IMG/VR virus record: IMGVR_UViG_3300047548_000610
Location: 1 to 48,467 of that record
From: a virus
Strand: one strand, 5' to 3'
DNA length: 48,467 nucleotides
Position numbers and translations under genes: made by a program. The notes beneath the pieces were generated by a model, which saw only the letters and a list, made by a program, of their open reading frames with translations, had not been told where the DNA came from and did no database searches. This document shows, piece by piece, positions 30,616 through 44,502 of the stretch (the stretch's first letter is position 1; the number at the start of each line of letters is the position of its first letter).

Positions 30616-31530
30616 ATGTCCGAATTCCCCGCAACACTAAGAAAAGTCAAGTACTTAAACAACAGAGATTTGCTTGCTGAAATACACAGAAGTAAATGCT
30701 CGTTTTCAAAATTCACCGGTCCTGAGCACAGTCAATATGACATTATCCTAACCAGCTTATCTCAGATTAACGATAAAGTTTTAGCCGAGGCCAAAAAGAA
30801 TCGCGCGAAACGAATCGGTGTTCAACTGTTCACCGAAGCTAGAAATTCCGGAGACAAAAAATCAAAACTGTCTGAATGTACCCCAGACCCCGAAACAATC
30901 AACGAGACTGACTTGATCATCAGAATAATGACCTACGATCACATACCGTTGGCTCCTGGAAGAAAGAAAACAACAAAATCAGTCGCCGATAGTCATGAAA
31001 AGGTAAACTTCCCCCCATTCCAGCATTGGAAATACAATGACGAAGGTGAACTCGTTTGTGTAGGTAAAAGTCACTGGATCGGAGATCTCCAAACTGGGAA
31101 ATTTAGTAAGGATCATGGACGAATTACTGAAAACTTAGGTAGAATGTTTATGAAACTAAGTGAAAGGTATGCGCAAAGAAGCAACTGGAGAGGCTACACG
31201 TATGTTGACGAAATGCGAGGACAGGCGATTCTACAACTAAGCCAGGTCGGTTTACAGTTTGATGAGTCCAAGTCAGAAAACCCATTTGCGTACTATACTT
31301 CAGCGATCACCAACTCATTCACAAGAATTTTGAATATTGAGAAGAAAAATCAAAATATCCGTGATGACCTACTTGAAGACGCAGGGCTAACCCCTAGTCT
31401 AACTAGACAAAATTCTCATGAATATGCTGAAGAAATTGCTAGACAAGCCGAAATTTATAAAAACATGAAGCTTCCAAAAAGCGAAGACTGTGAATTCGAA
31501 GAGGATGACGAATTCAAAGAAACTGACTAA
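30616..31530 (+). CDS. 55: Late transcription sigma factor gp55
   Basis: Homolog of T4 gp55, which binds host RNA polymerase core and directs it to late promoters. The conserved sigma region 2-like core is at about residues 185-275: NWRGYTYVDEMRGQAILQLS, VGLQFDESKSENPFAYYTSA, ITNSFTRILNIEKKNQNIRD. It is followed by the family's C-terminal DLLEDAG..PSLTRQNSHEY. At 304 aa it is longer than T4 gp55 (185 aa). The first ~170 residues are an extension (basic patches, VNFPPFQHWKYNDEGELVCV) of the sort seen in aquatic T4 relatives. An acidic C-terminal tail (EEDDEFKETD) may be the clamp-binding end. Driven by the sigma70 promoter at 30570. Confidence 0.9.
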   Translation: MSEFPATLRKVKYLNNRDLLAEIHRSKCSFSKFTGPEHSQYDIILTSLSQINDKVLAEAKKNRAKRIGVQLFTEARNSGDKKSKLSECTPDPETINETDLIIRIMTYDHIPLAPGRKKTTKSVADSHEKVNFPPFQHWKYNDEGELVCVGKSHWIGDLQTGKFSKDHGRITENLGRMFMKLSERYAQRSNWRGYTYVDEMRGQAILQLSQVGLQFDESKSENPFAYYTSAITNSFTRILNIEKKNQNIRDDLLEDAGLTPSLTRQNSHEYAEEIARQAEIYKNMKLPKSEDCEFEEDDEFKETD

Positions 31531-31588: not shown

Positions 31589-32602
31589 ATGTCTTTATTT
31601 AAAAAAGTAGCCTGCTTCACAGACCTTCATGTTGGCCTGAAAAGCAACAGCACCACACATCTAAGTGACTGCGAAGAATTTATTGATTGGTTTATAGACA
31701 CAGCCAAAAAGGAAGGGGCAGAGACTTGTATCTTCCTTGGTGATTGGAGTCACAATCGAAATAGTCTAAACCTAATCACACTAGACACTAGCATCCGTTT
31801 ACTGGAAAAACTAGGAGCTGCTTTTGAGCAGTTTTTCTGGTTTCCAGGTAATCACGATTTGTTCTACAAAGACAAACGTGACATTCATAGTTCAGCGTTT
31901 GGACGACATATTCCAGGCGTTACTGTGGTCGAAAAAGTAACTACCCTAGGTGATGTGACCTTAGTACCGTGGTTGGTAGGTGACGAATGGAAAAACATCA
32001 GCAAGACCAAAAGCAAATACATGTTCGGGCATTTTGAGTTGCCTTTGTTCTACATGAACGCAATGGTTCAAATGCCTGACCATGGCGAGCTACAAGCCGA
32101 CCACTTTAAGCATCAAGATTATGTTTTTAGTGGGCATTTCCATAAGCGGCAAGCTCGTGATAAGATTCATTACATTGGCAATGCTTTTCCACACAACTAC
32201 GCAGATGCGTGGGATGATGATAGAGGGATGATGATTCTGGAATGGGGTAGCGAGCCTAAGTATATTAACTGGCCTAACTGTCCGAAATATCGAGTAACAA
32301 AGCTGTCTGAACTCATAGACAAGCAGAACTCAATTATGAAGACTAAAATGTATCTAAGAGTAAACTTGGATATCGACATTAGTTTCGAAGAAGCAAACTT
32401 CATTAAAGAAACATTTGTTAAGGATTACGATATCAGGGAAATCAGTCTGATACAAGACAAGTCAGCAATCGAGGGCGCAGTTGAAGAAACTGGAACTCAA
32501 GCGTTTGAAAGTGTTGATCAGCTTGTAACTCGAGAACTAATAAACATCGAATCTGAGTCATTCGACAAAACGCTATTATTAAACATTTACAACAATATCT
32601 AA
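31589..32602 (+). CDS. 47: Recombination endonuclease subunit gp47 (SbcD/Mre11-like)
   Basis: The nuclease half of the gp46/gp47 complex, which resects DNA ends for recombination-dependent replication. Its metallophosphoesterase motifs appear in order: FTDLHVG (D12, H14), GDWSHNR (about 51-57), GNHD (about 86-89), FGHFELP and GHFHKR (about 182-187). The length of 337 aa matches T4 gp47 (339). It is followed by gp46 with a 1-nt gap, so translation is coupled. The extended -10 promoter at 31536 and the early-type neighbours suggest expression before late genes. Confidence 0.93.
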   Translation: MSLFKKVACFTDLHVGLKSNSTTHLSDCEEFIDWFIDTAKKEGAETCIFLGDWSHNRNSLNLITLDTSIRLLEKLGAAFEQFFWFPGNHDLFYKDKRDIHSSAFGRHIPGVTVVEKVTTLGDVTLVPWLVGDEWKNISKTKSKYMFGHFELPLFYMNAMVQMPDHGELQADHFKHQDYVFSGHFHKRQARDKIHYIGNAFPHNYADAWDDDRGMMILEWGSEPKYINWPNCPKYRVTKLSELIDKQNSIMKTKMYLRVNLDIDISFEEANFIKETFVKDYDIREISLIQDKSAIEGAVEETGTQAFESVDQLVTRELINIESESFDKTLLLNIYNNI

Positions 32603-32603
32603 C

Positions 32604-34388
32604 ATGGCATTTACACTAAAATCTCTAACGGCGAAGAACTTCATGAGTATCGGAAACGTATCACAAGCCGTTGATTTCGACAAAGAGCACTTAACGCTAG
32701 TTTTAGGTGTAAATTTGGACTTGGGTGGAGACGATACTGGTAGCAGAAATGGCACCGGGAAAACAACAATCGCGAACGCATTAAGCTATGCCCTGTACGG
32801 TCAGGCGTTGACTAACATTAAAAAAGAGAACCTGATCAATAAGATCAATGGTAAAAATATGTTAGTGACCGTGGAATTTGAAAAGAACGGTCTAAATTAC
32901 CGAATCGAACGTGGTCGAAAACCAAACATATTAAAGCTGTATGTAAACAATAAAGAAATCAAATCCACTCAGGATGAGGATGAAAGTCAGGGCGACAGTC
33001 GTGAAACACAAAAAGCAATTGAACAAATGCTCGAAATGAGTCATACAATGTTCAAGCACTTTGTCGCACTGAACACATACACTGAACCATTTTTGAGTCT
33101 CAGGACTTCAGAACAACGAGAAATTATCGAGCAACTGCTGGGTATAACTATTTTGAGTGAAAAGGCAGAAAGCCTTAAATCACTAATAAAAGATACCAAG
33201 GATCAACTACAGCAGGAAAATTTCAAGATTGAAAGCATTAAAACAGCTAACAGCAATGTCCAAAAAAGTATCAGCAGTTTAGAAATAAAAAGCTCAGCAT
33301 GGCAACAAAAGAAAGAATCCGACTTAGCAAAGCTCGCAAAATCTATATCCGAGCTTGAAAGCGTTGATATCGATAATGAGCTTGTTCAACATGCCGCATT
33401 AAAAGCATGGGAGCAAACGGACACTGCTTTTAGGAATTTATCTAAACAACGCGCAACCCTCGAAGCGGCGTTGGCTCAAGCAGAAAAAACAGTTGCCAAA
33501 TATACCAAAGAACTAGAAAAACTCTTAGACAAAACATGCCCGGCGTGTGATCAAAATCTACACGATCACAAGCATCAAGAGATGTCAGATGTTGCCGAAA
33601 AGAATCTCTCAGACGCGGTTATATACCAAGAAAAAGTTTCAAGAGACTTAAACACAGTAGTCAGCAGTCTAGCGCAACTGAACGTACAACAGCACAAGCC
33701 CCTGACATTTTACGATAGTGAGTCGGAGGCCCTCGGGCATAAGAATAATCTAAACAATCTGATTAGAAATTTAGAAACTAAATTCGCTGAATCAAATCCC
33801 TATGATGAACAGATCGTAGAACTAAAGAAAACTGCTATCCAAGAAATTTCGTGGGATCGCATTAACGAGCTATCTTCTCTAAAGGACCATCAGGAGTTTT
33901 TACATAAACTGTTAACTAACAAGGACAGTTTTGTTAGAAAAAAGATTATCGATCAGAATCTGAACTATCTAAACAACCGCCTAAGTTATTATATTAGCAA
34001 GTTGGGGCTGCCACATATGGTCGTGTTCCAAAACGATCTAAGTGTGGAAATTACTCAGTTAGGTCAAGATTTAGACTTTGATAACCTAAGCAGAGGTGAA
34101 CGCAATCGTTTAATTTTAAGTCTAAGTTTCGCTTTCCGTGATGTATGGGAAGGATTATATCAAAATATAAACTTGCTGTTCGTTGACGAGCTGATGGATG
34201 CTGGCATGGACTCGGCTGGTGTCGAAGCAGGTCTAGCTGTCCTAAAGAAAATGTCTCGTGATAGGAGCAAAAACATTTTCCTAATTTCCCACAAGGACGA
34301 GCTAGTAGGAAGGGTTAACAATGTGTTACGAGTGATCAAGGAAGCAGGGTTCACTAGTTATTCTCCGGATACTGATTATGTCGACTGA
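32604..34388 (+). CDS. 46: Recombination endonuclease subunit gp46 (SbcC/Rad50-like ATPase)
   Basis: SMC-type ATPase partner of gp47. At 594 aa it is slightly longer than T4 gp46 (560). Features in order: Walker A GSRNGTGKTT (about residues 46-55); two coiled-coil arms rich in K/E/Q; a zinc hook CPAC (about 312) at the apex; the ABC signature LSRGERNR (about 495); Walker B LLFVDELMDAG (about 524); and an H-loop ISHKDEL (about 562). All catalytic elements look intact. It overlaps the next small gene by 11 nt. It uses DNA ends and ATP and tethers ends with gp47. Confidence 0.95.
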   Translation: MAFTLKSLTAKNFMSIGNVSQAVDFDKEHLTLVLGVNLDLGGDDTGSRNGTGKTTIANALSYALYGQALTNIKKENLINKINGKNMLVTVEFEKNGLNYRIERGRKPNILKLYVNNKEIKSTQDEDESQGDSRETQKAIEQMLEMSHTMFKHFVALNTYTEPFLSLRTSEQREIIEQLLGITILSEKAESLKSLIKDTKDQLQQENFKIESIKTANSNVQKSISSLEIKSSAWQQKKESDLAKLAKSISELESVDIDNELVQHAALKAWEQTDTAFRNLSKQRATLEAALAQAEKTVAKYTKELEKLLDKTCPACDQNLHDHKHQEMSDVAEKNLSDAVIYQEKVSRDLNTVVSSLAQLNVQQHKPLTFYDSESEALGHKNNLNNLIRNLETKFAESNPYDEQIVELKKTAIQEISWDRINELSSLKDHQEFLHKLLTNKDSFVRKKIIDQNLNYLNNRLSYYISKLGLPHMVVFQNDLSVEITQLGQDLDFDNLSRGERNRLILSLSFAFRDVWEGLYQNINLLFVDELMDAGMDSAGVEAGLAVLKKMSRDRSKNIFLISHKDELVGRVNNVLRVIKEAGFTSYSPDTDYVD

Positions 34389-34728: not shown

Positions 34729-34771
34729 CCCACATAAATAGATAACAAATTAAAGTTATTGTTTATGTGGG
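34729..34771 (+). promoter_or_regulatory. Start-codon-sequestering hairpin of the GIY-YIG endonuclease gene
   Basis: CCCACATAAA (34729-34738) is perfectly complementary to TTTATGTGGG (34762-34771). Inside, ATAAC (34742-34746) pairs with GTTAT (34755-34759), leaving an 8-nt loop. The 3' arm contains the ATG at 34765. Read-through transcripts from upstream genes would bury the start codon. A late motif sits in the 5' arm, so a late transcript would lack that arm. Confidence 0.75.
34733..34740 (+). promoter_or_regulatory. Late promoter CATAAATA inside the hairpin arm
   Basis: It matches seven of eight bases of TATAAATA. A start about 6 nt downstream (near 34746) removes the whole 10-nt 5' arm of the sequestering hairpin and leaves a 19-nt leader before the ATG at 34765. 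Confidence 0.6.
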
Positions 34772-35175
34772 TTTACCAGGGAAATGTCGTTGACGAGTTG
34801 CCAGAAGACTGTGTTGGGTTTGTTTACCTGATTGTTAACACACTCAACGGGAAAAAATACATAGGCAAAAAACTTTCCAAATTCTCAAAAACTTCATATA
34901 AAGTAGTAACACTCAAGAACGGGACGAAAAAACGAAAAAAAATTCGTTCCAAGATAGACTCTGATTGGAAAACATATTGGTCGAGCTCGGAAGATCTAAA
35001 AAAAGATGTAGAAACACTCGGAGAATCAAATTTCACACGTGAAATTCTAAAATATTGCTCATCAAAAAATGAACTGTCTTATTACGAAGCAAAATTCCAG
35101 TTCGACGAAGATGTGCTATTACATGAAGACAAATGGTACAACAAATGGATTTCTGTAAAAGTTAGGTGTATGTAG
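34765..35175 (+). CDS. GIY-YIG homing endonuclease (free-standing)
   Basis: A 136-aa protein of the GIY-YIG nuclease type found in T4-like phages. The GIY element is GFVYLIVNTLNGKKYIGKKL near residues 18-37, followed by an R/K-rich loop and a characteristic DWKTYWSSSEDLKKDV and CSSKNELSYYEAKFQFDEDV segment. It has only this catalytic-like domain and no clear DNA-binding extension. I start it at the ATG at 34765 (MWVYQGN). A TTG six bases upstream is in frame but lies in the hairpin loop side. Context (between gp46 and non-coding DNA) and regulation by a hairpin plus internal late promoter match selfish homing genes of T4. Cleavage site unknown. Confidence 0.8.
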   Translation: MWVYQGNVVDELPEDCVGFVYLIVNTLNGKKYIGKKLSKFSKTSYKVVTLKNGTKKRKKIRSKIDSDWKTYWSSSEDLKKDVETLGESNFTREILKYCSSKNELSYYEAKFQFDEDVLLHEDKWYNKWISVKVRCM

Positions 35176-35185
35176 CAAAAAACTC

Positions 35186-35215
35186 TTGACAAGCGATTGT
35201 CAAATACTGTAATAT
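35186..35215 (+). promoter_or_regulatory. Sigma70-type promoter with overlapping palindrome
   Basis: TTGACA (35186-35191), an 18-bp spacer and TAATAT (35210-35215). The -35 box is part of a perfect inverted repeat TTGACAA-GCGA-TTGTCAA (35186-35203), an operator-like arrangement. A second weaker pair, TTGACA (35224-35229) and TAATTC (35247-35252) with 17-bp spacing, follows. No protein gene starts nearby, so the transcript is probably non-coding. Confidence 0.65.
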
Positions 35216-35221
35216 ATCATA

Positions 35222-35691
35222 AATTGACACCAAGTCTAGCATTTTTTAATTCTCTTTTTAGGCACTTTTTTAATTTCGTCGTCGTGACATAAGGTTGGCA
35301 GGCCGGGCTAGAATACTGCTAACGAACCCGTTCTGATGTGAGACGGTAGTTAATTCTCTACTTCACGATAGAGGCTTTTGAGCACTATCCCTTTGCGCAA
35401 AAAGGGACGCCTTAAATCGACTTCCTGACGGTAAATCCACACATAGGACGCTTGGTTTGCTCAATCGGAATGGTTCTAAAACGAGTTGTAAAACACGATG
35501 AGTACAATATAGATCGTGACAATCCTGCAATGATTTACAAAAGCACCTGAAAGTAAATCTTAAAAATCGCTGTTGGTTGGGTATGGAGCAGAGCCCATAA
35601 CAGGAGTTTACAATCAAATATTTGCTGGCATCATAAAAATTGGTCGGCAAGAAATCCAATTGCTGATCCCTTGCGACGGGTCAATTTTTTT
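35222..35691 (+). ncRNA. Candidate structured non-coding RNA (about 470 nt)
   Basis: This stretch has no convincing plus-strand reading frame but is bounded by a sigma70-type promoter and a terminator-like hairpin. It holds many local hairpins. CGGG (35304-35307) pairs with CCCG (35327-35330). TCCCTTT (35388-35394) pairs with AAAGGGA (35401-35407). TTGT+CACGAT (35486-35499) pairs with ATCGTGACAA (35513-35522). GATTTAC (35532-35538) pairs with GTAAATC (35553-35559). TATGG pairs with CCATA near 35583-35599. The number and regular spacing of perfect stems suggests a folded RNA. I do not recognise the class. A minus-strand 98-aa frame here looks like chance. Confidence 0.5.
35658..35691 (+). terminator. 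Terminator-like hairpin ending the candidate RNA
   Basis: AAT (and TGA) upstream of T-CCC (35658-35670) pairs with GGG-TCA-ATT (35678-35686) around the loop TTGCGAC, with small bulges. It runs directly into a T tract (35685-35691). The stem is imperfect, so confidence is moderate. Confidence 0.5.
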
Positions 35692-35692
35692 G

Positions 35693-35712
35693 GCACCCCC
35701 TTGCAAGGGTGC
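35693..35712 (+). repeat. GC-rich inverted repeat
   Basis: GCACCC (35693-35698) pairs with GGGTGC (35707-35712). The centre is the perfect 12-bp palindrome CCCTTGCAAGGG (35698-35709). There is no T run after it, so it is not a terminator. It could be a protein-binding site or a separate RNA stem. Confidence 0.45.
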
Positions 35713-35799
35713 TCCATGGCTCTAGGTCAAGGGGATAACAAAAAATAAAAAATAAAACAGCAACAGTTAAAACAGTTCAACAAAAGAAAAAATAACTGA

Positions 35800-35870
35800 G
35801 TTTGCGTAAGCAAACGAAAGTTAGGTTAACGCAGTTAACCTCTTACAGTTAAGTAAGACTGCTTGTTTTT
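35800..35870 (+). terminator. Three tandem hairpins with alternative terminator fold
   Basis: Hairpin 1: GTTTGC-GTAA-GCAAAC (35800-35815). Hairpin 2: AGGTTAAC-GCA-GTTAACCT (35823-35841). Hairpin 3: CTTAC (35842-35846) with GTAAG (35853-35857). In an alternative fold GCAGT (35831-35835) pairs with ACTGC (35858-35862) and extends hairpin 3 to ten base pairs with a 6-nt bulge, followed directly by TTGTTTTTT. Hairpin 2 and this terminator exclude each other, as in attenuators and riboswitch platforms. Confidence 0.5.
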
Positions 35871-35875
35871 TCAAT

Positions 35876-35883
35876 GATAAATA
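35876..35883 (+). promoter_or_regulatory. Late promoter GATAAATA before the DUF3820-like gene
   Basis: Seven of eight bases match the T4 late consensus. A start near 35889 lies downstream of the ATG at 35874 and upstream of the ATG at 35904, so it favours the second ATG as the true start. Confidence 0.6.
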
Positions 35884-35903
35884 TCTCTAACAAAGAATTT
35901 ATC

Positions 35904-36089
35904 ATGAAAGAATACTACAAGGAATACGCATACACAAAGATGCCTTGGGGGAAGCACAAAGGAAAATTTTTAAAAGATATTCCTGAAGATTACCTCAAGT
36001 GGGCTGTTGCTAACTGGAGTGACCGAGGAGTTGCTGAGATGTTCAAAATCGAATTACTAAGGCGTGTGCCCGCTCTTAGACGCGGCTAA
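35904..36089 (+). CDS. DUF3820-like small protein
   Basis: A 61-aa protein carrying the core motif MPWGKHKGKFLKDIPEDYLK followed by WAVANW. This is typical of the DUF3820 family (small proteins in phages and bacteria, some next to exonuclease domains). Biochemical role is not known to me; a nucleic acid-related role is a guess based on those fusions. I choose the ATG at 35904 rather than 35874, because a GATAAATA late motif overlaps the earlier start and the domain begins just after 35904. Shine-Dalgarno is weak (AAAGAA). Confidence 0.75.
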   Translation: MKEYYKEYAYTKMPWGKHKGKFLKDIPEDYLKWAVANWSDRGVAEMFKIELLRRVPALRRG

Positions 36090-41502: not shown

Positions 41503-44502
41503 ATGGCATGGTTAAAATATTTTACCCCAGTTAATACTAATGGACAAATGAGTCCAATTAGTGGCTCGATGGTCTCGAACGCAAATCCCAGTAGGACTAA
41601 CTATTCTAGCTATTTGCCAGATGTGTATGCTGGCCACCCGAATCGTCTTGAAAGATACGGTCAGTATGACACTATGGATACTGACAGTGAAGTAAACGCT
41701 GCTTTAGATATATTAGCAGAGTTTTGTACACAGGAAAACACCGAAAATAAAACGCAGTTCAGCCTCAATTTCAAAGAACAAGCGACGAATGCTGAAGTGA
41801 CAATTATTAAAAAGTACCTGCAGCAATGGTGTAAACTTAATAAATTTAATAAGAGGTTGTTTAAGATTGTTAGAAACGCCTTCAAGTATGGCGACGTATT
41901 CTTTGTTCGCGATCCAGAAACGCAGAATTGGATGTATGTAGACCCTGCTAAAGTTGATAAAATTATTGTAAATGAAAGTGACGGCAAAAAACCTGAACAG
42001 TATCACATCAGAGATTTCAATCCAAACTTAGAAGCTCTATCAACTACTGCTATTAACCCTAGCAACTTACAAGGTGGAGGAAGCACTTTTGGTGGGAGTT
42101 ACGGAACTGGACAAGGTGGCGCTGGTGGAAGCCGTGGTATGGTTGGATCGTTTCCGACAAGCGCGAGCTCTAGTAGATTTACAACTAATCAAAATCAATA
42201 CGCAATTGACGCACGACATGTGATCCACATCAGCATGAGCGAGGGACTAGACAATAACTACCCATTTGGTAACAGCTTGCTGGAAAGTATCTTTAAAGTT
42301 TTTAAACAGAAAGAACTATTAGAAGATGCGATTATCATCTATCGCGTACAGCGTGCCCCAGAACGCCGTGTGTTCTATATTGACGTTGGAAATATGCCTA
42401 GCCACTTGGCAATGGGATTTGTTGAACGAGTGAAGAACGAAGTCAACCAACGACGCATTCCAAGTACAACTGGCGGTAGCCAAACAGTTGTTGATTCATC
42501 GTACAACCCGTTGTGTTTGGATTTAGATACCAAAATACCATTACTAGATGGGAGAACCTTAACTCTTACTGAACTTATTGAAGAATTCAACGAAGGTAAG
42601 GAAAACTGGGCATATAGTTGTAATCCTGAAACTGGCGAAGTTGTCCCTGGCGTCATTAACTGGGCAGGGATCACTCGTAAAAATACCGAAGTTATTAAGT
42701 TGACTTTCGATAATGGCCGAGAATTAATATGTACACCGGATCATAAAATTCCAGTATTCGGACGTGGATTTGTTGAAGCTAAAGATTTAACTCCATCTGA
42801 TAGTTTAATAGCATTTAATACCCAAATGGCGCCAATCGCCGGCGGCGGTAACGATTACCAGCAAGTTTGGGACCATTCAACAAAATCATGGAAATGGACT
42901 CATAGAGTAGTTGGAGAGTTTTTTAGATCCAGAAACAAGCACCAAGAATTTACATATTTAGAAGAGAATATTGGGAAGCCAAAAACTGTAATTCATCATA
43001 GAGACTCCAATAGGTATAATAACGATCCAAGGAATTTGACCTATATGGATAAGGCCGATCACATTTTGTTCCACGCCTCTCAAAAGAAAGACTTTTGGGA
43101 AAATATGTCTAATGAATATAGAGCAGAAATGACTGGAAAAATTTCTAATACCTTAAAACATCATTGGCAAAATATGTCAGAGCAAGAACGACTTTCTGCT
43201 CTGTGGAATATTAGATCAGCACAGAAAAAAGCCGTGTGGATGCGGGCTAATGATCCCGATACTGCTGCTAGGTATAAAAAGAACGCATCTGAAGCACGTA
43301 AAAAATATATTCAAAATAATCCAGATTTTTCTGACCAACTGTTAGTGAATTTGGAAAATCGAGTTAAAATTAAAAATCAAGAATTAGTCTTAACATTTGA
43401 CATGCTTCAAATTGTAGCAGACAAAGTCAAGTCCGGTGTGACTAATAAAAATCAAGTGATTGAACTCTGTGATAACGATCGTAAATTACTTGAGTTGGTT
43501 AAACTCAACAATAGTGATTCGTTAGATTATAAAAATGCTCATTGTAAAATTGATTTTACAAAATTCGGGTATTCTAAATTGGACAGGTTGCTCGCCCTAC
43601 ATGGATACAAGAACTGGAAAACGTTTGTGAAGGAAATTGCAAATTTTAATCATAGAATTGTAAAAATTGAAAAGGTTTCTAATAGAGATACTGGCACAAT
43701 TACTATTGATGGAACTGAGCGCTGGCACAATTACCATACTTTTGCTATTGAATCTGGAATTTTTGTTAAAAACTCTATTAATGAAGATTACTTCTTCCCA
43801 CAAACAGCAGAAGGTCGTGGTTCAAAAGTTGAAATCCTTCCAGGCGGAACGAACTTAGGTGAGATTGATGACTTGAAGTACTTTACTAACAAGCTGTTTA
43901 GAGCATTAAGAATTCCTAGCAGCTATTTGCCAACAGGGTCTGATGATGGCGGATCGAACTTCAACGACGGTCGGGTCGGAACCGCGTACATTCAAGAACT
44001 ACGATTTAACAAATACTGCGAACGATTACAGTCTCTAATGAACGATATTTTCGATTACGAGTTCAAACTGTATTTGAAAAACAAAGGAATCAATGTCGAT
44101 GACAACATCTTCGATGTAAAGTTTAATCCTCCACAGAACTTTGCTAGCTATCGTCAAGCAGAGATGGATACGGCTCGCGTGAACACGTTTGGCACAATGT
44201 CTCAAGTTCCGTTTGTAAGTAAGAGGTTTGCGCTGAAACGATTCCTCGGCCTATCCTCAGAGGAGGTTGCTGAAAACGAAACCTTATGGAAAGAAGAAAA
44301 CGTTGATTCTGATCAACAACTAAGCGCAAGTGCTGAGTTGAGAATGCAAGGAATTACTGCAAACGGAATAGGGTCGGATCTAAGCGGCCTAGCCGGAGCA
44401 ACCAGTGTCCCTGCTCCGGGTGAAGAACCTGAAGCCGGTGGCGAAATGCCCGGAGCAGAAATGCCAGGAGCAGAACCTACTCCACCGACGTCTGGAGTAT
44501 AA
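41503..44502 (+). CDS. 20: Portal vertex protein gp20 interrupted by an intein
   Basis: The portal ring at the head-tail vertex, through which DNA is packaged. The open frame is 999 aa. Removing the intein (residues 338-757) leaves 579 aa, close to known gp20 sizes (T4 524). Portal segments include DTDSEVNAALDILAEFCTQE (near residue 60), NNYPFGNSLLESIFKVFKQK (about 250), APERRVFYIDVGNMPSHLAM, and after the intein NEDYFFPQTAEGRGSKVEIL, LGEIDDLKYFTNKLFRALRI and PSSYLPTG. The N-extein ends SSYNPL and the C-extein starts SINEDYFF, so splicing restores the conserved portal segment. The C-terminus is Pro/Gly/Glu-rich. The stop codon overlaps a perfect TATAAATA. Confidence 0.95.
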   Translation: MAWLKYFTPVNTNGQMSPISGSMVSNANPSRTNYSSYLPDVYAGHPNRLERYGQYDTMDTDSEVNAALDILAEFCTQENTENKTQFSLNFKEQATNAEVTIIKKYLQQWCKLNKFNKRLFKIVRNAFKYGDVFFVRDPETQNWMYVDPAKVDKIIVNESDGKKPEQYHIRDFNPNLEALSTTAINPSNLQGGGSTFGGSYGTGQGGAGGSRGMVGSFPTSASSSRFTTNQNQYAIDARHVIHISMSEGLDNNYPFGNSLLESIFKVFKQKELLEDAIIIYRVQRAPERRVFYIDVGNMPSHLAMGFVERVKNEVNQRRIPSTTGGSQTVVDSSYNPLCLDLDTKIPLLDGRTLTLTELIEEFNEGKENWAYSCNPETGEVVPGVINWAGITRKNTEVIKLTFDNGRELICTPDHKIPVFGRGFVEAKDLTPSDSLIAFNTQMAPIAGGGNDYQQVWDHSTKSWKWTHRVVGEFFRSRNKHQEFTYLEENIGKPKTVIHHRDSNRYNNDPRNLTYMDKADHILFHASQKKDFWENMSNEYRAEMTGKISNTLKHHWQNMSEQERLSALWNIRSAQKKAVWMRANDPDTAARYKKNASEARKKYIQNNPDFSDQLLVNLENRVKIKNQELVLTFDMLQIVADKVKSGVTNKNQVIELCDNDRKLLELVKLNNSDSLDYKNAHCKIDFTKFGYSKLDRLLALHGYKNWKTFVKEIANFNHRIVKIEKVSNRDTGTITIDGTERWHNYHTFAIESGIFVKNSINEDYFFPQTAEGRGSKVEILPGGTNLGEIDDLKYFTNKLFRALRIPSSYLPTGSDDGGSNFNDGRVGTAYIQELRFNKYCERLQSLMNDIFDYEFKLYLKNKGINVDDNIFDVKFNPPQNFASYRQAEMDTARVNTFGTMSQVPFVSKRFALKRFLGLSSEEVAENETLWKEENVDSDQQLSASAELRMQGITANGIGSDLSGLAGATSVPAPGEEPEAGGEMPGAEMPGAEPTPPTSGV
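42514..43773 (+). mobile_element. Intein with HNH homing endonuclease in gp20
   Basis: A 420-aa in-frame insertion (gp20 residues 338-757). Block A is CLDLDTKIPLLDGRTL, beginning with the splicing Cys. Block B is ELICTPDHKIPVFGRGF, with the TxxH motif. The C-terminal blocks are WHNYHTFAIESGIFVKN followed by Ser of the extein. Between them lies an HNH nuclease (about residues 494-525: VIHHRDSNRYNNDPRNLTYM and DHILFHAS). The penultimate residue is Lys instead of the usual His. A+T content is visibly higher than in the exteins: two 60-nt samples counted by hand give 27% and 33% G+C against 48% in one extein sample. This suggests recent transfer. Confidence 0.92.

Follow-up and report, generated by a model that had tools for sequence, protein, structure and literature searches.

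The stretch of DNA analyzed here (hereafter the window) is the whole of the 48,467-bp virus record IMGVR_UViG_3300047548_000610, to which all coordinates refer. Judged from its gene content, it derives from a T4-like myovirus, with genes for the late sigma factor gp55 (30616-31530) and for gp47 and gp46 (31589-34388), and with a baseplate hub protein, a portal and a head protease also among its T4-like genes. The closest match to its gp46 in cultured phages is found in the group of the Pseudomonas jumbo phage PA5oct (47.6% identity), in which the gene order resembles that of the window. The portal gene (41503-44502) encodes a protein of 999 amino acids in which an HNH-endonuclease-like stretch, at about residues 465-549, splits two portal-matching stretches and is likely to be an intein. 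A SegE-type endonuclease gene is followed by an intergenic gap of 698 bp (35176-35873), the largest between the main genes of the window (the runner-up measures 253 bp), which contains no credible open reading frame: the only one exceeding 60 amino acids is an antisense frame of 98 amino acids with a TTG start. A gene on the same strand follows from 35874; the start of the frame listed there (35874-36089) overlaps a late-promoter-like site, GATAAATA at 35876, and the true start is likely the ATG near 35904. The main features of the locus are the following.

34733 to 34740, plus strand: CATAAATA, a site resembling a T4 late promoter, 5' of the SegE gene; its function is inferred.
34759 to 35175, plus strand: SegE-type GIY-YIG endonuclease gene (Pfam PF19835, 5.9e-31).
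35186 to 35215, plus strand: TTGACA-18-TAATAT, a sigma-70-like match that is not above chance.
35283 to 35730, plus strand: body of the structured non-coding RNA, based on nhmmer homologues, covariation, a match to our model R1 (35282-35477) and alignments of the 3' domain.

We conclude that the gap very likely contains the gene of a large, stand-alone RNA, non-coding and structured, about 450 nt in length. A preliminary description, made from the sequence alone, had proposed at 35186-35691 a hairpin-rich non-coding locus running from promoter to terminator, a candidate phage structured RNA. The features that it described are all present: about 470 nt without a credible protein frame, at least five local stems of 4-10 bp (one with a bulged AAAA), the TTGACA-18-TAATAT sequence, and a hairpin with a T run at 35664-35691. 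Its boundaries, however, needed correction. Promoter-like sites of this type occur as often as in shuffled sequence (4 observed versus 4.3 expected), and the sigma-70 reading was discarded as evidence. The terminator reading is doubtful (4 terminator-like sites versus 2.0 expected), and the hairpin is probably internal to the RNA, since conserved sequence extends downstream of it in relatives. Folding energy was also discarded as proof of structure: as it is unremarkable by itself (z = -1.48), the structure had to be demonstrated by the comparison of homologues. Both homologues and strong covariation were found, so that the candidate is supported and the outcome that would have refuted it, no conservation and no covariation, is not borne out. 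The preliminary description missed the true ends of the RNA, its distant kinship to the Polynucleobacter-1 motif (RF01718), and its copies in bacterial islands with late promoters.

Homologues were searched with nhmmer in loci fetched via the neighboring proteins. Within these loci the nucleotide homologues lie mostly directly 3' of SegE; a SegE homologue sits just 5' of the RNA in most phage relatives, and the SegE protein cluster adjoins the RNA in 73 loci. The common core, CCGTTCTGATGTGNGACGG, is present in at least 119 viral contig stretches and 58 bacterial genome stretches. Four of the latter (L317, L325, L350 and L360) were dropped as chance core matches, and the remainder belong mainly to Polynucleobacter, Limnohabitans and Rhodobacteraceae. 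The carriers of the RNA amount to more than 100 uncultured phage contigs, which we assign to T4-like freshwater phages, and about 54 bacterial contigs. A nucleotide search with the window RNA and three relatives against 50,697 phage records gave chance matches or nothing; R1 found no match in nine cultured phages, and five of their regions searched with filters off gave chance-level scores. Divergent copies beside SegE (L140, L069, L113, L112 and similar) score 20-29 bits with R1, and in L140 the core loop differs. Separately, in a different phage group (L279, L221, L291, L213, L255 and relatives), the core hairpin lies within what appears to be another structured RNA, near a terminase and portal operon and oriented away from it. 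This class was left out of the family, as it has only the core hairpin (24 nt) in common with R1, a resemblance that may reflect chance or a shared module.

The fold of the 5' domain was derived from an alignment of 70 sequences, with a counted structure of 33 pairs in eight helices, of which the following elements are given in window coordinates.

35283 to 35287, plus strand: 5' strand of pseudoknot PK1 (CGTGA), pairing with TCACG at 35363-35367 in the P4 loop.
35297 to 35320, plus strand: helix P2 (35297-35301 with 35316-35320), 96.5% of cells paired, two-sided changes at 5 of 5 pairs.
35321 to 35351, plus strand: helix P1 (35321-35323 with 35349-35351), enclosing P3, 86.8% of cells paired.
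35328 to 35346, plus strand: core hairpin P3, CCGTTCTGATGTGAGACGG, common to window-type, bacterial and RF01718-type members.
35357 to 35372, plus strand: helix P4 (35357-35360 with 35369-35372), whose loop makes the pseudoknot; 92.1% of cells paired, two-sided changes at 4 of 4 pairs.
35378 to 35464, plus strand: long-range helix P6 (TTGAGCA at 35378-35384 with TGCTCAA at 35458-35464), a counted helix with 99.4% of cells paired.
35390 to 35405, plus strand: hairpin P5 (35390-35394 with 35401-35405), 88.5% of cells paired.

The helices of this alignment were recovered by mutual information with no structure supplied. Standard pairs fill 92.6% of cells, versus 66.9% in shuffles and 31-47% when the partners are slid, and two-sided changes number 596 versus 174 in shuffles. 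The covariation score of 0.649 compares with 0.195 for shuffled alignments and falls to 0.07-0.12 when partners are slid by one to three columns. It should be kept in mind that this alignment also served in part to name the structure, which is therefore favored over its slid versions, and that the structure controls, for the 5' and the 3' domain alike, are all tree-free. The individual helices nevertheless leave little doubt about the fold; P6, for instance, is built from dozens of different stems, all of them pairing. In the pseudoknot PK1, 76% of cells are paired and two-sided changes occur at 4 of 4 pairs; compared with swapped partners, 72 of 75 sequences give a good match, where 53 were expected and 63 was the maximum in 100 shuffles. 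The core of P3 is invariant in the alignment, but this is no evidence, because the core was itself the search pattern. The R1 match at 35282-35477 must likewise be read knowing that the window belongs to the R1 seed.

The RNA body starts near 35283, and its conserved parts extend beyond the T run to about 35730, with the following elements in the 3' domain and at the end.

35532 to 35559, plus strand: hairpin P8 (GATTTAC at 35532-35538 with GTAAATC at 35553-35559).
35579 to 35596, plus strand: hairpin GGGTATGGAGCAGAGCCC, conserved in a 17-sequence alignment.
35664 to 35691, plus strand: hairpin and T run, the proposed terminator; the conserved sequence of relatives continues downstream.
35692 to 35713, plus strand: terminal hairpin (GGCACCC...GGGTGCT), with counterparts at the equivalent place in relatives.
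35679 to 35684 and 35725 to 35730, plus strand: copies of the short repeat GGTCAA flanking the terminal hairpin, read by eye in the window.

P8 is paired in 17 of 17 sequences of the 3' domain alignment, with 14 different stems. Around the terminal hairpin, 58 of 122 RNAs carry a matched repeat with a CTCA or CTA lead, versus about 5 expected, and in these cases the repeat is the same within one RNA and different from RNA to RNA; the window, whose GGTCAA lacks the CTCA lead, is not counted among the 58. Pairing of the repeats with an internal complement is ruled out, as the complement is depleted within the same RNA (1 of 78 versus 4.8). We infer that this depletion fits recognition of the repeat by a partner. 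Short AGGCA-type repeats also recur in the leader 5' of many copies (e.g., L197, L309, L273, and near 35254 in the window).

In an Rfam scan of the window no family reached its gathering cut-off, GOLLD and ROOL included, and the caution of the preliminary description in not matching the RNA to a known class was justified. A relaxed search found RF01718, Polynucleobacter-1, with 13.6 bits over 35293-35438 (gathering cut-off, 37 bits), the other relaxed matches in the window being chance-level or sub-threshold. Of 20 related loci, ten reach a gathering cut-off, nine or ten of them for RF01718 (the scan gave ten RF01718 matches and one tRNA), whereas none of the 18 bacterial-genome loci scanned does. 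The seed of R1 contains window-type and bacterial sequences only, RF01718-type sequences having been excluded, and yet R1 matches RF01718-type members over its full length (positions 1-178) with about 41-65 bits. Since R1 finds these members end to end, the superfamily is larger than RF01718, which represents its 5' domain alone. The window RNA is a relative of RF01718 rather than a formal member, and its 5' domain fold is homologous. In the original 2010 table, Polynucleobacter-1 is listed from freshwater Burkholderiales with RNA 'y', cis-regulatory 'y' and switch '?' (PMC2864571). The job of the Polynucleobacter-1 RNA is unknown. As far as we searched, its description contains no long 3' domain, bacterial islands or late promoters.

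The surroundings of the bacterial copies differ from those in phages. Their neighbors include tyrosine integrases in 41 loci and DUF6641 in 34, besides other small families, and in eight loci the cluster of an AAA protein that matches the phage clamp-loader family phrog_168 (8.6e-21). In the genus to which one Polynucleobacter genome (G001) belongs, 25 of 121 genomes have the RNA, as do 5 of 198 and 2 of 200 genomes in two families, with one to three copies per genome. An integrase together with a patchy chromosomal distribution, as expected of phage satellites, is thus seen for the bacterial copies. A search for attachment sites in the island flanks revealed matches that were all lineage-specific, without a clear flanking repeat. 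We infer that the islands resemble satellites of T4-like phages; excision, helper dependence and mobility have not been shown. One Limnohabitans contig (L376 and L377) carries two related islands about 16 kb apart, each with RNA, integrase and late promoter, and in one bacterial island (L377, 5735-11439) a 19-nt palindrome, GTGTCGTGTTACACGACAC, recurs several times, possibly as a regulator or terminator site.

The core of the T4 late promoter, TAAATA, is found 55 times in the 200 bases 5' of the core of 51 bacterial copies, versus 2.6 expected; the sites lie mostly 60-100 bases upstream, and nearly all copies are preceded by one. In window-type phages the count is 19 versus 2.3 expected (the window being counted twice in this set), and in other phages 16 versus 5.7, several of these inside the RNA itself. 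Within the islands, a late promoter is also present 5' of DUF6626 (6 of 10) and of two other small families, and absent before the large integrase (0 of 14) and the clamp loader (0 of 8). T4 late transcription requires gp55, gp33 and the clamp gp45 (PMC2988020, PMC7892883). Late-phase expression of the RNA in islands is likely, a conclusion drawn from promoters only, without expression data. Directly 5' of the window RNA a late promoter is lacking, as it is for many phage copies placed straight after SegE, and it is possible that readthrough from the late-like site at 34733, through SegE, also feeds it.

We propose that the phage locus encodes a stand-alone RNA of about 450 nt, from a superfamily whose 5' domain is the Polynucleobacter-1 motif, and that satellite-like islands have a copy of their own, preceded by a T4-type late promoter. 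In such islands, production of the RNA would depend on a T4-like phage to supply gp55. During the late phase the RNA would work in trans, as such or within an RNP, in virion assembly, packaging or late takeover, and the version in the island would compete with or redirect that of the phage. The homology, the secondary structure with its pseudoknot, the distribution and the promoter enrichment are shown. The explanation as a whole could prove right or wrong with much the same probability. That the RNA functions in assembly, packaging or late takeover, which is inferred from timing and from the sharing of the RNA between phage and presumed satellite, we consider somewhat more doubtful than that, and no evidence singles out one molecular step.

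Of the alternatives, an RNA-only oligomer or cage is unlikely although it remains compatible with our results. GOLLD and ROOL form nanocages (PMC12286853), and the present RNA is likewise large, ornate, phage-borne and pseudoknotted; against this, covariance models detect no homology to either, the RNA does not reach the length of GOLLD, and the window contains no tRNA gene. A role as cis-regulatory leader or riboswitch for the gene that follows, as might be suggested by the tentative cis-regulatory assignment of Polynucleobacter-1 in 2010 (PMC2864571) and by the same-strand gene at 35874, is also unlikely: the downstream genes vary among relatives, in the window the next gene has a late-like site of its own at 35876, and the RNA greatly exceeds the motif in length and stops well short of that gene. 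A 6S RNA-like decoy or regulator of the phage-modified RNA polymerase would suit the late-promoter timing in islands, which would profit from disturbing the helper's late transcription; we consider it improbable, as Rfam scans gave no 6S match and the fold is multibranched and pseudoknotted rather than one long bulged hairpin. Also hard to sustain is the view of the islands as defense loci for which the phage late promoter serves as an alarm, with the RNA as an effector or decoy copied from phages. Late-promoter control would fire only during infection and the islands are patchily distributed, but the island proteins tested gave weak AAA matches and no specific defense family, the integrase and clamp loader suit a satellite better, and phages themselves carry the RNA. 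Finally, a self-splicing intron or a product of the neighboring homing endonuclease, suggested by the GIY-YIG gene directly upstream in the window and 73 loci, is very unlikely: neither group I nor group II introns were matched in Rfam scans, the RNA lies between genes without interrupting any, and the bacterial copies lack a GIY-YIG neighbor.

The late, trans-acting RNA shared by phages and islands thus remains our preferred reading. A bolder version, which we offer as a possibility, is that the islands of freshwater and marine bacteria represent a hitherto unrecognized class of satellites that parasitize T4-like phages, each using T4-type late promoters to switch on its own copy of the RNA, which would serve in virion assembly or packaging; if true, a large RNA would be used by phage and parasite alike in a late step. 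We found no account of this combination of RNA, islands and late promoters in the literature searched, of which our coverage was partial, nor any satellite that combines a large structured RNA with late promoters of the T4 type. Only Polynucleobacter-1, a short distant relative, had been catalogued. The present results extend that orphan motif of 2010 to a large and widespread phage RNA of which it forms the 5' domain, provide a biological setting and a link to bacterial islands apparently wired to T4-like late transcription, and open its function to tests in hosts that can be cultured, for example Polynucleobacter and Limnohabitans.

All together, the RNA can be placed beside three known systems. 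It shares with Polynucleobacter-1 the core hairpin and the layout of the 5' domain, whereas RF01718 measures 141 nt and the window RNA roughly 450 nt. Like GOLLD and ROOL, it is a large, ornate phage RNA of unknown function (PMC12286853), and thus a further case for the question of what such RNAs do, but the present RNA adjoins SegE or integrase genes instead of tRNA islands. As in phage satellites (PLE, PICI, PICMI and similar), the islands carry an integrase, some of them together with a T4-type clamp loader; judged from promoters alone, their late genes also appear to be keyed to a phage.
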